Assembly (NCBI RefSeq): GCF_029919255.1
Contig: NZ_CP123991.1
Location: 2,333,833 to 2,397,832 of the forward strand
Direction: 5' to 3'
Source of the DNA: a cyanobacterium endosymbiont of Epithemia clementina EcSB
GTDB lineage: Bacteria > Cyanobacteriota > Cyanobacteriia > Cyanobacteriales > Microcystaceae
Length of the DNA stretch: 64,000 bases
The position numbers were made by a program, and so were the translations under genes. Positions within the stretch are counted from its first letter, which is position 1. Every line of letters starts with the position of its first letter. This document shows positions 44,338-48,074 of the stretch, piece by piece. The notes beneath the pieces are model-generated. The model saw only the letters and a program-made list of their open reading frames with translations. It did no database searches and was not told where the DNA came from.

Positions 44338-44982
44338 ATGAATTCTAATCAAACTGTTTGGATCGCTAGACATGGGAATCGTCTAGATTTTGTTAACCCT
44401 GAGTGGTTTAATACGGCTGAACGTCCTTACGATCCTCCTCTCTCTGAAGACGGAATTATGCAAGCTCAACAATTAGGAAAACGACTAAAATCAGAAAATA
44501 TTGTCCATATTTTTGCCTCACCTTTTTTAAGAACTATTCAAACTGCCCATCAGATAGCGGAAATTCTTGATATTGAGATTAAACTAGAAGCGGGACTCGC
44601 TGAATGGCACAATCCTGAATGGATGAGTCAACATCCAGAAATACATCCTCCCGACTATTTAGATAAAGAATATCCTCGTATCAATTGGCATTACCACTCA
44701 AAATGTGTCCCTCAATATCCTGAAACTGAAACTAAAGTAATGCAACGAACAGGAGAAATTATTAAGCAATTAATTGCTGAATTCCCCGAGAATATCTTAT
44801 TAGTTGGTCATGGGGTATCGGTGTTAGGAACTACTTGGGGATTAGTGCCAGGAACTCCTAAAATTAGGGCTGCTTTATGCTGTTTAGTTAAAGTCGTTTA
44901 TGAAGATGAGCGCTGGCAATTGAAATTAAATGGTGACACTTCCCATTTGCATAAAACAGAGAGTAAAATTAGCTTTCTTTAA
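44338..44982 (+). CDS. Histidine phosphatase superfamily protein
   Basis: 214 residues of the phosphoglycerate-mutase-like superfamily. The catalytic RHGNR with nucleophile His12 is at residues 11-15. FASPFLRTIQTAHQIAEIL holds the second catalytic Arg, GLAEWHN supplies the acid, and LLVGHGVSVLG the second His. It is intact and probably a phosphatase of unknown substrate. It resembles eukaryote-type members of clade 1 in the SPFLRTIQTA block, which is also seen in cyanobacterial homologues. It follows the dead DUF1995 gene; nothing suggests an operon. Confidence 0.85.
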   Translation: MNSNQTVWIARHGNRLDFVNPEWFNTAERPYDPPLSEDGIMQAQQLGKRLKSENIVHIFASPFLRTIQTAHQIAEILDIEIKLEAGLAEWHNPEWMSQHPEIHPPDYLDKEYPRINWHYHSKCVPQYPETETKVMQRTGEIIKQLIAEFPENILLVGHGVSVLGTTWGLVPGTPKIRAALCCLVKVVYEDERWQLKLNGDTSHLHKTESKISFL

Positions 44983-45589
44983 AAAATTTTTTTAAAAAAG
45001 TGGTGTTGCTGAACTTGTGTACAACAGATAAAAATACAAAGAAAAAATTTAACCATCAGCAACAAATTTCTCAACAGAGATAACCATGATATGGGGAGTG
45101 TTAAAATAAGTTCTGTGTTTTAACTGAAACATGCTAAATATAGTGTTTCGGTAATTCATGTTAAATTAACTCAATACAATGACAACTGAATTGAATATTA
45201 ATTGTGAAGCGGTTATTAGAATGATGCTGAGACGTTTTTTCGATAAATATTCTAGAAAAAATAGCTTATCAACTCAGAAAATACATATTTTAGTGCTATT
45301 AGCTTCGCGGAGCCTTCAGTTTCCTCAATCTTGTTGGTTGGGTAGTCTTCGACGCTGTTCGGTAAAAGAGTAACAAAACCCAAGATAAATCTTTCTTGTG
45401 TTTTACATTTATCTGTTAAATTATACTTAGTTTGATTCAACTTGGATAATGTTTTTTATCAATTGTGCACCATTATGGCTGGCAATAATTCACTGATATA
45501 CTGAAATCATCCTTGGATTCCAGTAGCTAACATTATTTGGGATTACTAAGTTAAAATGCCTAATCGTTAATATTTTGAGACTCAAGACA
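44983..45589. other. Spacer upstream of the ycf3 relic
   Basis: No gene supported. Small overlapping frames near 45180-45440 on both strands have no ribosome sites and no recognisable domains. The former ycf3 promoter would be here. Confidence 0.5.
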
Positions 45590-46091
45590 ATGCCTAGAAC
45601 TTAACGTAATGATAACTTCATTGATGAAAACTTTACGGTAATGGCTGATATTTTTATCCAAATCTCACCAACCAGCAAAAAAGCCAAAGAAACTTTTATG
45701 TACTACCGTGAGGTAATTTCCACTTAAGCAAATGGAGAATATACCGAGACGTTAGATAACTACTATGAAGCTCTCAAGTTGGAAGCAGCTCCTGACAGTC
45801 GTAGCTATGTCTTCTACAAGACTAACATAATTTTTTATGCCAGCAATGGAGAGCAAGCCAAAGCTTTGGAATACTATGCAAAATATGTTGCTCTTAACCC
45901 AAGATAACATCGCTGTTATTTATCACTACAAGGGAGAAAAAGCTAAAGAACGAGGGGAAGAAACAGAAGCTTTGGTTAATAAAACGACTTAATGTTGTAA
46001 ACAAGCGATCTGTTTAGCTTTCAATAATCACATTGAAGTTCAAAATTGGTTTAAAATGTTAGGACCTTCAGAAATGAACGTTGTTTTCTAA
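45590..46091 (+). pseudogene. ycf3: Photosystem I assembly gene ycf3, inactivated
   Basis: The reading follows Ycf3 from end to end. It opens MPRT, then a stop, then [17 protein letters not shown] and [14 protein letters not shown], then a second stop. TPR blocks follow: [39 protein letters not shown], a third stop, and in a shifted frame AVIYHYKGEKAKERGEETEA-like sequence. It ends EVQNWFKMLGPSEMNVVF then TAA at 46089-46091. The native protein is about 173 residues with three TPRs that chaperone photosystem I subunit assembly. At least three in-frame stops and a frameshift make it dead. The decay is recent enough for the whole length to be readable. It ends 29 bases before gatC. Confidence 0.9.
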
Positions 46092-46120
46092 TGAGTATTC
46101 CTAATTCCTAGAAAAAATAA

Positions 46121-46417
46121 ATGATTAATCGGCAACAAGTTCAAAAAATCGCTCATTTAGCAAGATTAAATATAACTCCTACAGAAGAAGAAGAATTTGC
46201 CCCTCAATTAAATAGCATTTTGGAATATTTTGATCAGTTAAGCAAACTTGATACCGAAAATGTGCCCCCAACTACTAGGGCAATCGAATTAAGTAACATT
46301 ACCCGTAGCGATAGTTCAACTGTTTACAGTGACCGCGAATCCCTTTTAAAAGAAGCTCCAGAAAAAGAAGGAGACTTCTTCCGAGTTCCTCAAATTTTGA
46401 AAAGTGACGAAGAATAA
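46121..46417 (+). CDS. gatC: Asp/Glu-tRNA amidotransferase subunit C
   Basis: 98 residues, full length. GatC wraps the GatA-GatB interface of the enzyme that amidates Glu-tRNA(Gln) (and Asp-tRNA(Asn)), giving glutaminyl-tRNA in organisms without GlnRS. The typical N-terminus [16 protein letters not shown], the middle [19 protein letters not shown] and the C-terminal [13 protein letters not shown] are all present. It lies directly behind the ycf3 relic; upstream transcription may once have come from ycf3, so its present promoter is uncertain. Confidence 0.95.
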
Positions 46418-46465
46418 TCTGTATAGAACTCTAAATTTCTAAGTTGTATGTTATGCTGATAGTTA

Positions 46466-46557
46466 GCTCGGACCCATGCGATTGCAACGCCCAAATCTTG
46501 TCAGGACCGGAAGGTAGCAGCAATACGGGATGCTTGCAATAGGCGTGGACTCCGGGC
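46466..46557 (+). ncRNA. ffs: Signal recognition particle RNA (4.5S)
   Basis: About 92 nt. The apical domain is GTCAGGACCGGAAGGTAGCAGC, the SRP RNA signature with the GGAA tetraloop and asymmetric loop that bind Ffh. The ends GCTCGGA and TCCGGGC pair, as do flanking ACCCATGCG and CGTGG-type segments, giving one long hairpin. It guides ribosomes translating membrane proteins to FtsY. Located 49 bases after gatC. Exact ends are inferred from pairing. Confidence 0.92.
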
Positions 46558-48074
46558 CCCCGCCACGTGTGTGGAAATATATTTTTTCATCAGTGACAAA
46601 TTGATTTCATTTAATCAAATGTCTTAATATGCACTCAGACATCATTCCTGGAATGAACCTTTGATTTACCTCCTGAGGCTGAGGATGAGTGTAGTTTGTC
46701 ATTTCTATTTTTGAGTTAATACTTCAATTGCTCCTCTTTATAAGAAAGTGAACAATGAGAGTCTCCAAATCTCATAACGTTAATTAGACATCTTTAATTG
46801 AGGATGTTGAAAAGAGGTTTTACAATGCCTAACAAATTCTAATTTAATCGTAATTTCAACTAAATAATTTGACCTAATATTGTTTAAGTAAGATTGCATT
46901 TTGTAAAGCTAAAACAACCACTTAAGAGCTAAGGACATTAAGCGTTAGATTAAACCCAATAACACAACGAGAATAATTATCGATTGCAGTTTTTAACTAA
47001 AAATGATTAATATCCTTACCTTAACGATAAACTAAGTAGGCAGCTCTCGATAAACATCAAAAACGCAAATAGTTTTGTATATCTATATTGCCGCTATTAT
47101 AAAGAGTTTGTTTAACTGTTCTAGTTAAATTAACTTTATTTTTAAACACTTTTCTGGTAATTTTATAAGTTTTTATTTTTATTTTTTTTATTGAATTTTA
47201 TCTTCGGGCTATAAGTTAATAAAAAGTATAGAAATAATTATTATTTCTCCTATTATTTTAGTTTTGCTTTAACTAAATTACTTATGTATTATGTGCGCTC
47301 AATTCCTATTAAGGATAATTTTCATATCTATGTTTTTATTTGCCGTATTTTTTAGATTGATACCTTTTTAGATAAAATTTTCTGTTTTTTAGGACATGTA
47401 TTAATCCTCGTTATTACTTTTATTCTTCTCTATTGCTAGCACTTTTACTTTGTCAAAAAAACATAGGGGTTTCAAAAAAAAAAATTATAATTACGTTTGA
47501 TAGTGAACAATATAATCTGCAAATTTTTTAGTTTTTTGATGCTCTATATAAGAGCATAAGATTGTGAGTCATTATTATTTTTTTAGAGAGTTATTTGAAG
47601 TTATAAGTAAACTTTAATAGGTTTTATCTATTAATTGTATTAGCTAATTTTTTAGACAATTTAGTATCCAGTAATTGCTTTTTAAATTAAAAATTACTTT
47701 TTGAGCATAGGTTTATTTAATTTTACTTATTCTTATTGAAGGTTACTTATTTAAGTTATATAGATTGATATCAATAAAAATATTTTTTATTATCAGCATA
47801 TTTTGAGTAATTTAAAAATTATTTATGCAAGTATATTTAAGTTATTTCTAGTTTCTAGAATCTTTTGATTCTAGAAATTTAAGTGCTCCCCTGACAACTA
47901 AACAGATTAATGATCTCCTTAAAGAAGAAACATCCTAGTGTGAGAATACAATCTAGTTTCCCTCTAGTTGATCACTCATTCCTTAAACTGACAGTTTCTC
48001 CATAGAAGTTATCGTATTTTTGATACAATCTACGGCATAATTGATATTTGATGTGATTTTATCGTTCATTCCCT
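46558..48074. other. Decayed AT-rich region
   Basis: 1.5 kb with no recognisable gene. Long T-rich stretches on the + strand suggest relics of membrane proteins but none can be assembled. An 11-bp stem with TTTT loop lies at 47852-47877. The promoter of the ABC cluster is in the last 100 bases. Confidence 0.55.

Follow-up and report, generated by a model that had tools for sequence, protein, structure and literature searches.

A ycf3 pseudogene in a cyanobacterial endosymbiont and its place in the decay of photosynthesis genes

Is the ycf3 locus of this endosymbiont chromosome still a gene for photosystem I (PSI) assembly and, if it is not, when did selection release it? The locus lies in a window of 64,000 nucleotides, the whole stretch of DNA that was analysed, from the genome called G000 here (contig NZ_CP123991.1). 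In passages of PMC6015050, which mention no cyanobacterial ycf3 knockout, Chlamydomonas and tobacco are said to depend on Ycf3 for PSI, while a cyanobacterium can do without Ycf4. A sequence-only reading of the window had described a fresh ycf3 pseudogene and had taken it as a sign of relatively recent loss, in a lineage that cannot be a normal phototroph and would be a non-photosynthetic endosymbiont such as the spheroid body of a diatom. We consider it highly probable (about 0.9) that the locus holds an orthologous ycf3 pseudogene, still in place on the chromosome of a diatom endosymbiont that does not photosynthesise (spheroid body or diazoplast), and that the gene decayed along the path proposed below.

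The curated Ycf3 family model, NF002725, which describes this photosystem I assembly protein, matched the locus in two pieces, at 45590-45919 (E 1.4e-38, model positions 1-109, three TAA within) and at 45897-46088 (E 3.5e-13, model positions 108-173, one TAA within), which together span the whole model; the intact orthologue of the congener G038 scores 325.7 bits. Lesions were mapped with that intact G038 gene as reference (table 1). The ATG at 45590 and the ancestral TAA at 46089-46091 are retained, and the same residue is still encoded at 109 of 165 aligned codons. With three stops and a 17-nt deletion, no open reading frame for a working Ycf3 remains. The sequence-only reading was right on these points: it had claimed at least three in-frame stops and a frameshift in a Ycf3 that can be followed throughout, and the alignment to G038 recovered them, at codons 5, 46 and 141 and in the deletion. 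It had also named an intact copy elsewhere as a finding that would overturn it. A DNA search of the closed 3.07-Mb genome returned the window itself as the sole match, and a plasmid DNA search returned no match; small plasmids are described for other spheroid bodies in passages of PMC11131595, and the G000 sequence is a single contig with no plasmid beside it. NF002725 gave seven matches in G000, and among the matches listed (E down to 9.3e-9) there were only the two pieces in the window, the other five being weaker than that. These results confirm that the locus is a ycf3 pseudogene and not a working member of the family.

Table 1. Features in and around the ycf3 locus (positions in the window)
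Feature	Position	Strand	Basis or remark
ycf3 pseudogene, complete from its ATG to the ancestral TAA	45590..46091	+	NF002725 matches, alignment to intact congener
In-frame TAA, codon 5	45602..45604	+	Q in free-living congeners
In-frame TAA, codon 46 (Q)	45725..45727	+	Alignment to G038
In-frame insertion, 3 nt	45827..45829	+	Alignment to G038
17-nt deletion (the frameshift), from codon 104	45901..45902	+	Alignment to G038
6-nt in-frame deletion, from codon 126	45950..45951	+	Alignment to G038
In-frame TAA, codon 141 (E)	45990..45992	+	Alignment to G038
Histidine-phosphatase/phosphoglycerate-mutase-like ORF, 214 aa	44338..44982	+	Below every NCBIfam cut-off; upstream of ycf3
gatC, intact, 98 aa	46121..46417	+	Downstream of ycf3; served as intact control

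The G000 genome is one contig of 3,072,807 bp (completeness 99.78). Six further genomes of the same genus were compared with it, three of them endosymbiont-sized (the single-contig G037, 2,794,318 bp; G040, 3,020,309 bp; and G041, 2,483,960 bp) and three free-living-sized (G036, with one contig of 4,679,413 bp, G038 and G039). As in spheroid bodies, the G000 chromosome is reduced, falling within 2.5-3.1 Mb, and belongs to the lineage neighbouring Rippkaea/Cyanothece PCC 8801; passages of PMC11070190 and PMC12903740 give this same size range and report ChlL, kept in G000, as kept in EcSB also. G000 groups with the diatom spheroid bodies, and it appears to be a nitrogen-fixing symbiont inside a diatom. 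A second match of the ChlL model in G000, below cut-off with an open frame of 314 aa, may be nifH. The ycf3 locus is in its orthologous position, since ycf3 is followed by gatC in the free-living G036, G038 and G039 as well as in the endosymbiont-sized genomes.

Across the family, ycf3 scored above the curated NF002725 cut-off in 43 of 50 genomes. The seven without such a match were the four endosymbiont-sized members of the genus and the free-living-sized drafts G023, G027 and G032; within the genus the count was 3/3 free-living-sized congeners against 0/4 endosymbiont-sized genomes. Both ycf3 and ycf4 are intact in G002 and G003, which are of UCYN-A size. The G040 gene has lost its start and carries a 198-nt deletion and one stop, the G037 gene has lost its start and carries five stops and several frameshifts, and about 41 nt are left in G041. 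No identical ycf3 stop or indel was found in any of the three pairings of G000, G040 and G037. Overlapping in-frame deletions around codons 125-126, of 6 (G000), 15 (G040) and 18 nt (G037), could mask one common deletion, which would not have been disabling. Codon 5 is TAA in G000 and TAG in G041 but CAG in G040 and G037, so that on the tree its stop most likely arose twice.

Timing of the release was based on G000, G040 and G037, the gene being lost in G041. Divergence of ycf3 at codon positions 1+2 was 0.203 (G000-G040), 0.321 (G000-G037) and 0.248 (G040-G037), against 0.195 (12 genes), 0.205 (10 genes) and 0.183 (12 genes) at four-fold sites of intact genes. Substitutions common to the three endosymbionts and absent from the three free-living outgroups were assigned to the stem. 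By codon position 1, 2 and 3 the stem carries 7, 0 and 8 of them, and the tips together carry 30, 25 and 9 (positions 1+2 against 3, Fisher p=0.0025). When a codon model was allowed its own dN/dS on each of the free-living branches, the stem and the tips, the values were 0.043, 0.133 and 0.88, on a short sample of 87 codons common to all three endosymbionts, with stops and gaps as missing data and a stationary base composition assumed for these A+T-rich genomes. Equality of stem and tips was rejected (p=3.1e-6), the tips were compatible with 1 (p=0.54), and equality of the stem with the free-living branches was weakly rejected, the stem being higher (p=0.011). In the gatC control the three values were 0.120, 0.051 and 0.123, and a tip value of 1 was rejected (p=3.7e-10).

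The ycf3 gene is thus constrained over most of the stem, with no detectable constraint on the tips. Selection on it ended near, and probably just before, the common ancestor of the three genomes that still hold it; because the stem value exceeds the free-living one, part of the neutral phase seems older than that ancestor. By a rough hand estimate, such a phase should have left about two common ycf3 lesions where none was observed, which is a mild tension. The stops and frameshift of G000 are private to it and therefore younger than the release from selection. 'Fresh' hence suits the individual lesions and fails for the loss of function, given a tip dN/dS near 1 and a divergence of 0.20-0.32 beside 0.18-0.21 at four-fold sites; a relatively recent loss is not supported either, as neutral drift of the gene goes back at least to the split from G040 and G037. 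That it can still be read is owed to a neutral divergence of only about 0.1 substitutions per site in this lineage, not to the youth of the loss.

Other photosynthesis genes were searched genus-wide, in seven genomes each. PsaA/PsaB gave long open matches in all three free-living-sized congeners, stop-bearing pieces in G000 and G040, and no match in G037 and G041. For D1/D2 there were stop-bearing pieces in G000 and pieces in G037, and no match in the endosymbiont-sized G040 and G041; for CP47/CP43 there were pieces in G000 (one, under cut-off), G037 and G040 and none in G041. Ycf4 is broken in G000, G037 and G040, without a match in G041. The Rubisco large subunit is broken in all four endosymbiont-sized genomes, and phycobiliproteins occur as broken pieces in three of the four, with none in G041. 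Judged on the core subunits PsaA/B, D1/D2 and CP47/43, G000 holds only pieces with stops and, like the spheroid bodies, no functional PSI or photosystem II (PSII) genes. With PSI, PSII, antenna and Rubisco genes broken or undetected, ordinary phototrophy is impossible for G000, in agreement with the sequence-only reading. Its comparison with a diatom spheroid body also fits, as the genome groups with these endosymbionts and psaA/B, psbA, psbB, ycf4, rbcL and the antenna genes are broken.

The same note had proposed a search for chl genes beside psaA, psaB and psb, and here the outcome differs, in that psaA/B and psb are broken and chlL is open and selected. Matches to the ChlL model exceed the cut-off and are open in G000, G040 and G041, though not in G037. 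Tip dN/dS of chlL is 0.107-0.135 in these three genomes versus 0.03 in free-living congeners, and neutrality was rejected in 3/3 pairings (p 6.8e-13 or less). Thus chlL is still under purifying selection, though relaxed, in three endosymbionts without photosystems. Passages of PMC12903740 report ChlLNB as held by RgSB, EcSB and EpSB, and in passages of PMC5638926 the chlorophyll genes of RgSB are proposed to be pseudogenes in effect already.

Some lesions in PSI genes are common to several genomes. The psaB copies of G000 and G040 have both lost 1 nt at one site, carry a stop in place of the same tryptophan codon and are truncated alike at the 3' end, and the stem dN/dS of psaB is raised (p=0.00034). 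Codon 133 of ycf4 is TAA in all three of G000, G037 and G040; at codon 181 G000 and G037 carry a stop that G040 lacks, a pattern that requires a repeat or a reversal on the tree. That tree, built from eight proteins of which only three have the outgroup G038, makes the ancestor of G000 and G040 the ancestor of G000, G040 and G037, with 75% support. A 15-nt deletion in the psaB tail was dropped as a lesion, since the free-living G039 has it too.

By DNA match, G000 psaB ends at about codon 517 and is followed by DNA leading into intact chlM and panB. G040 has this psaB-chlM junction too, and in G037 and G041 the chlM side occupies the matching position. In all four endosymbiont-sized genomes the region upstream of psaA is joined to the chlM side (L036:2970-4657; L158; L159; L037); in G036 and G038, tblastn found no chlM in the 20 kb downstream of psaA/B or in the 12-13.5 kb upstream. 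Within the stretches compared, the join is a common rearrangement, present even in G041, the most distant member. What precedes it in G000 is a psaA::psaB hybrid pseudogene (G000:C1:2151907-2153469; L036:1408-2970), in which diagnostic sites flip from psaA-like to psaB-like near G000:C1:2152750-2152810, in or beside a region of strong likeness (78%) between the two genes. The hybrid apparently formed through a deletion by recombination between the tandem paralogues psaA and psaB.

These data bear on four other accounts of the locus. PSI could have been functional in the common ancestor and lost several times separately, ycf3 going with each loss. The lack of a common ycf3 lesion would agree with this, as would the fact that psaB is readable in only two genomes, G000 and G040. 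We nevertheless regard it as quite unlikely: it is contradicted by the deletion, stop and truncation that these two psaB copies have in common, by the ycf4 stop at codon 133 in 3/3 genomes, by the raised psaB stem dN/dS, and by a tree that places the G000/G040 ancestor at the base of all three. A recent loss of ycf3 in the G000 lineage alone, leaving a fresh pseudogene, would explain why all four disabling lesions are private to G000 among the three genomes and why the whole gene is traceable. It would not explain why ycf3 is neutral over the tips, with positions 1+2 diverged at least as much as the silent sites of intact genes, why the G040 and G037 copies are broken as well, or why psaB and ycf4 have lesions in common with those genomes, and we consider it very unlikely.

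Sequencing or assembly error as the source of the stops and frameshift is extremely improbable. Neither the stops nor the frameshift is a homopolymer slip, the former being substitutions (CAR to TAA, GAA to TAA) and the latter the loss of 17 nt; congeners G037 and G040 are also broken at ycf3, in different ways, and the adjoining gatC is intact and constrained. It is likewise hardly credible that the broken gene still works, by stop read-through, as a short functional fragment or from a copy moved to the diatom nucleus. A tip dN/dS indistinguishable from 1 speaks against a selected protein product of the locus, and the PSI core genes are broken, so that nothing is left for Ycf3 to assemble.

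We therefore return to ycf3 as an in-place pseudogene that decayed with the rest of PSI. The antenna and PSII would have been lost first and the PSI core thereafter, which would have left Ycf3, whose known job is PSI assembly, without a substrate. Selection would have lapsed on ycf3, psaB and ycf4 at about one time, near the endosymbionts' common ancestor; the neutral stem lengths of the three genes overlap (table 2). Mutation would then have broken the reading frame separately in each lineage, and ycf3 would now be functionless, decaying DNA.

To order the losses, we fixed tip dN/dS at 1 in the same codon model and estimated, for eight pseudogenes including ycf3, how much of the stem had already evolved neutrally (tau, counted in neutral substitutions per site). 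Two of them we take, from their start sequences, to be apcB and apcF; each matches PF00502, the phycobilisome family. The order rests on these eight genes, each of them short, with base composition taken as constant. Intact orthologues of psbD came from one congener only, which kept it outside the timing, as poor alignment did for G040 rbcL (tip counts 115/103/75) and G000 psbB (130/127/70). Gene conversion is possible in psbA, which is multi-copy.

Table 2. Already-neutral part of the stem in eight pseudogenes (ranges 5-95%, 60 bootstrap resamplings)
Gene	tau (range)	Genomes
apcB	0.277 (0.195-0.360)	G000+G040+G037
psbB	0.154 (0.129-0.190)	G040+G037
apcF	0.120 (0.081-0.177)	G000+G037
psbA	0.101 (0.078-0.130)	G000+G037
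psaB tail	0.071 (0.041-0.100)	G000+G040
ycf3	0.055 (0.017-0.090)	G000+G040+G037
ycf4	0.038 (0-0.088)	G000+G040+G037
rbcL	0.001 (0-0.011)	G000+G037

The ranking was unchanged after dropping codons within four of a gap, and counts of common lesions agree with it. There are two stops and two frameshifts in apcB (3/3 genomes), eight stops and four frameshifts in psbB (G040 and G037; one and two of these, respectively, in all three), five stops and three frameshifts in psbA (G000 and G037), one stop in apcF, one stop and one frameshift in psaB and one stop in ycf4 (3/3), with none in ycf3 and none in rbcL of G000 versus G037 (G040 rbcL aligned poorly). The bootstrap fraction in which a gene was released earlier than ycf3 (three genomes) was 1.000 for apcB and psbB, 0.979 for apcF, 0.949 for psbA and 0.004 for rbcL, while psaB (0.618) and ycf4 (0.251) could not be distinguished from ycf3. 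The earlier release of apcB and CP47 (psbB) is thus well supported. Taken as a whole, the order PSII before PSI is only probable: psaB and the PSII genes were judged from separate ranges rather than by direct bootstrap comparison, the ranges of psbA and apcF overlap that of psaB, and in mean-tip units psaB is no younger than those two genes, at 1.01 versus 0.87 and 0.84 (tip-unit estimates from 40 bootstraps for 5 of 11 gene sets and 24 for the others).

A longer survival of ycf3 than of psaB is not claimed. When scaled by tip length, psaB seemed the older loss (1.01 versus 0.23-0.49 tips), as it did in second-position stem:tip counts with two outgroups (16:21 versus 2:19 for ycf3, Fisher p=0.0085). 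The psaB stem count falls to 11 when the third outgroup G039 is added, and the two genes overlap in absolute neutral units.

At the other end of the ranking, rbcL is under strong purifying selection over the whole stem, and Rubisco is firmly the last of the eight to be released. Together the estimates suggest an order of antenna/PSII, then PSI with ycf3 and ycf4, then Rubisco, with chlL still selected. We tentatively extend this into a history in which the ancestor passed through a PSI-only stage and then a stage with Rubisco and no photosystem, followed by parallel Rubisco losses, at least two, and with chlorophyll synthesis going last; the Rubisco part is the firmer and the PSII-before-PSI part the weaker. 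Selected after the photosystems had gone and lost later at least twice, Rubisco would have been useful in a cell that did not photosynthesise, for example in carbon recycling or as a redox sink, a suggestion no firmer than the history to which it belongs. On the same two tips (G000 and G037), the stem dN/dS was 0.045 for rbcL and 0.556 for psbA (L163, L165).

UCYN-A, the endosymbiont of Braarudosphaera bigelowii, is an independent nitrogen-fixing endosymbiont that has lost PSII and carbon fixation and retains PSI, according to passages of PMC12362246 that compare end states of the endosymbionts. In the spheroid bodies, by contrast, PSI is broken and Rubisco outlasted the photosystems. If the proposed history is true, the ancestor of the spheroid bodies passed through a PSI-only stage resembling present-day UCYN-A. 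Were the order to hold, the two independent cases could be compared step by step, and it would show what parts of photosynthesis keep their use longest as a nitrogen-fixing endosymbiont evolves towards an organelle.

That spheroid bodies are non-photosynthetic and have lost photosynthesis was already known, and a dead ycf3 is as expected. Like G000, EtSB (Epithemia turgida) and RgSB (Rhopalodia gibberula) have no functional PSI/PSII genes and many pseudogenes in the account of PMC5638926, whose main text does not mention ycf3 and treats pseudogenisation by its present state; passages of it give neither shared versus private lesions nor an order of release. A full-text literature search returned no paper combining 'ycf3' and 'spheroid body'. 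By title or opening of the abstract, none of the papers listed dealt with the order of photosynthesis loss in spheroid bodies; ycf3 may already be listed in the 2014 PNAS genome paper or in a supplement. Read beside seven other pseudogenes, the decay of ycf3 turns the loss of photosynthesis into an order of events and helps to date its steps in this symbiont family.

Around the locus, the phosphoglycerate-mutase-like ORF is the upstream neighbour of ycf3 in all four genomes of spheroid-body type, so that the order of this ORF, ycf3 and gatC (44338-46417 in the window) is common to the endosymbiont-sized members of the genus; in the three free-living congeners the mutase-like gene is placed elsewhere. 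This arrangement favours one origin for all four endosymbiont genomes. Identity of the encoded protein to its G000 counterpart is 85-88% in G040 and G041 but only 62.5% in G037, where the gene may be decaying. A small bacterial SRP RNA gene lies downstream of gatC, at 46465-46561.
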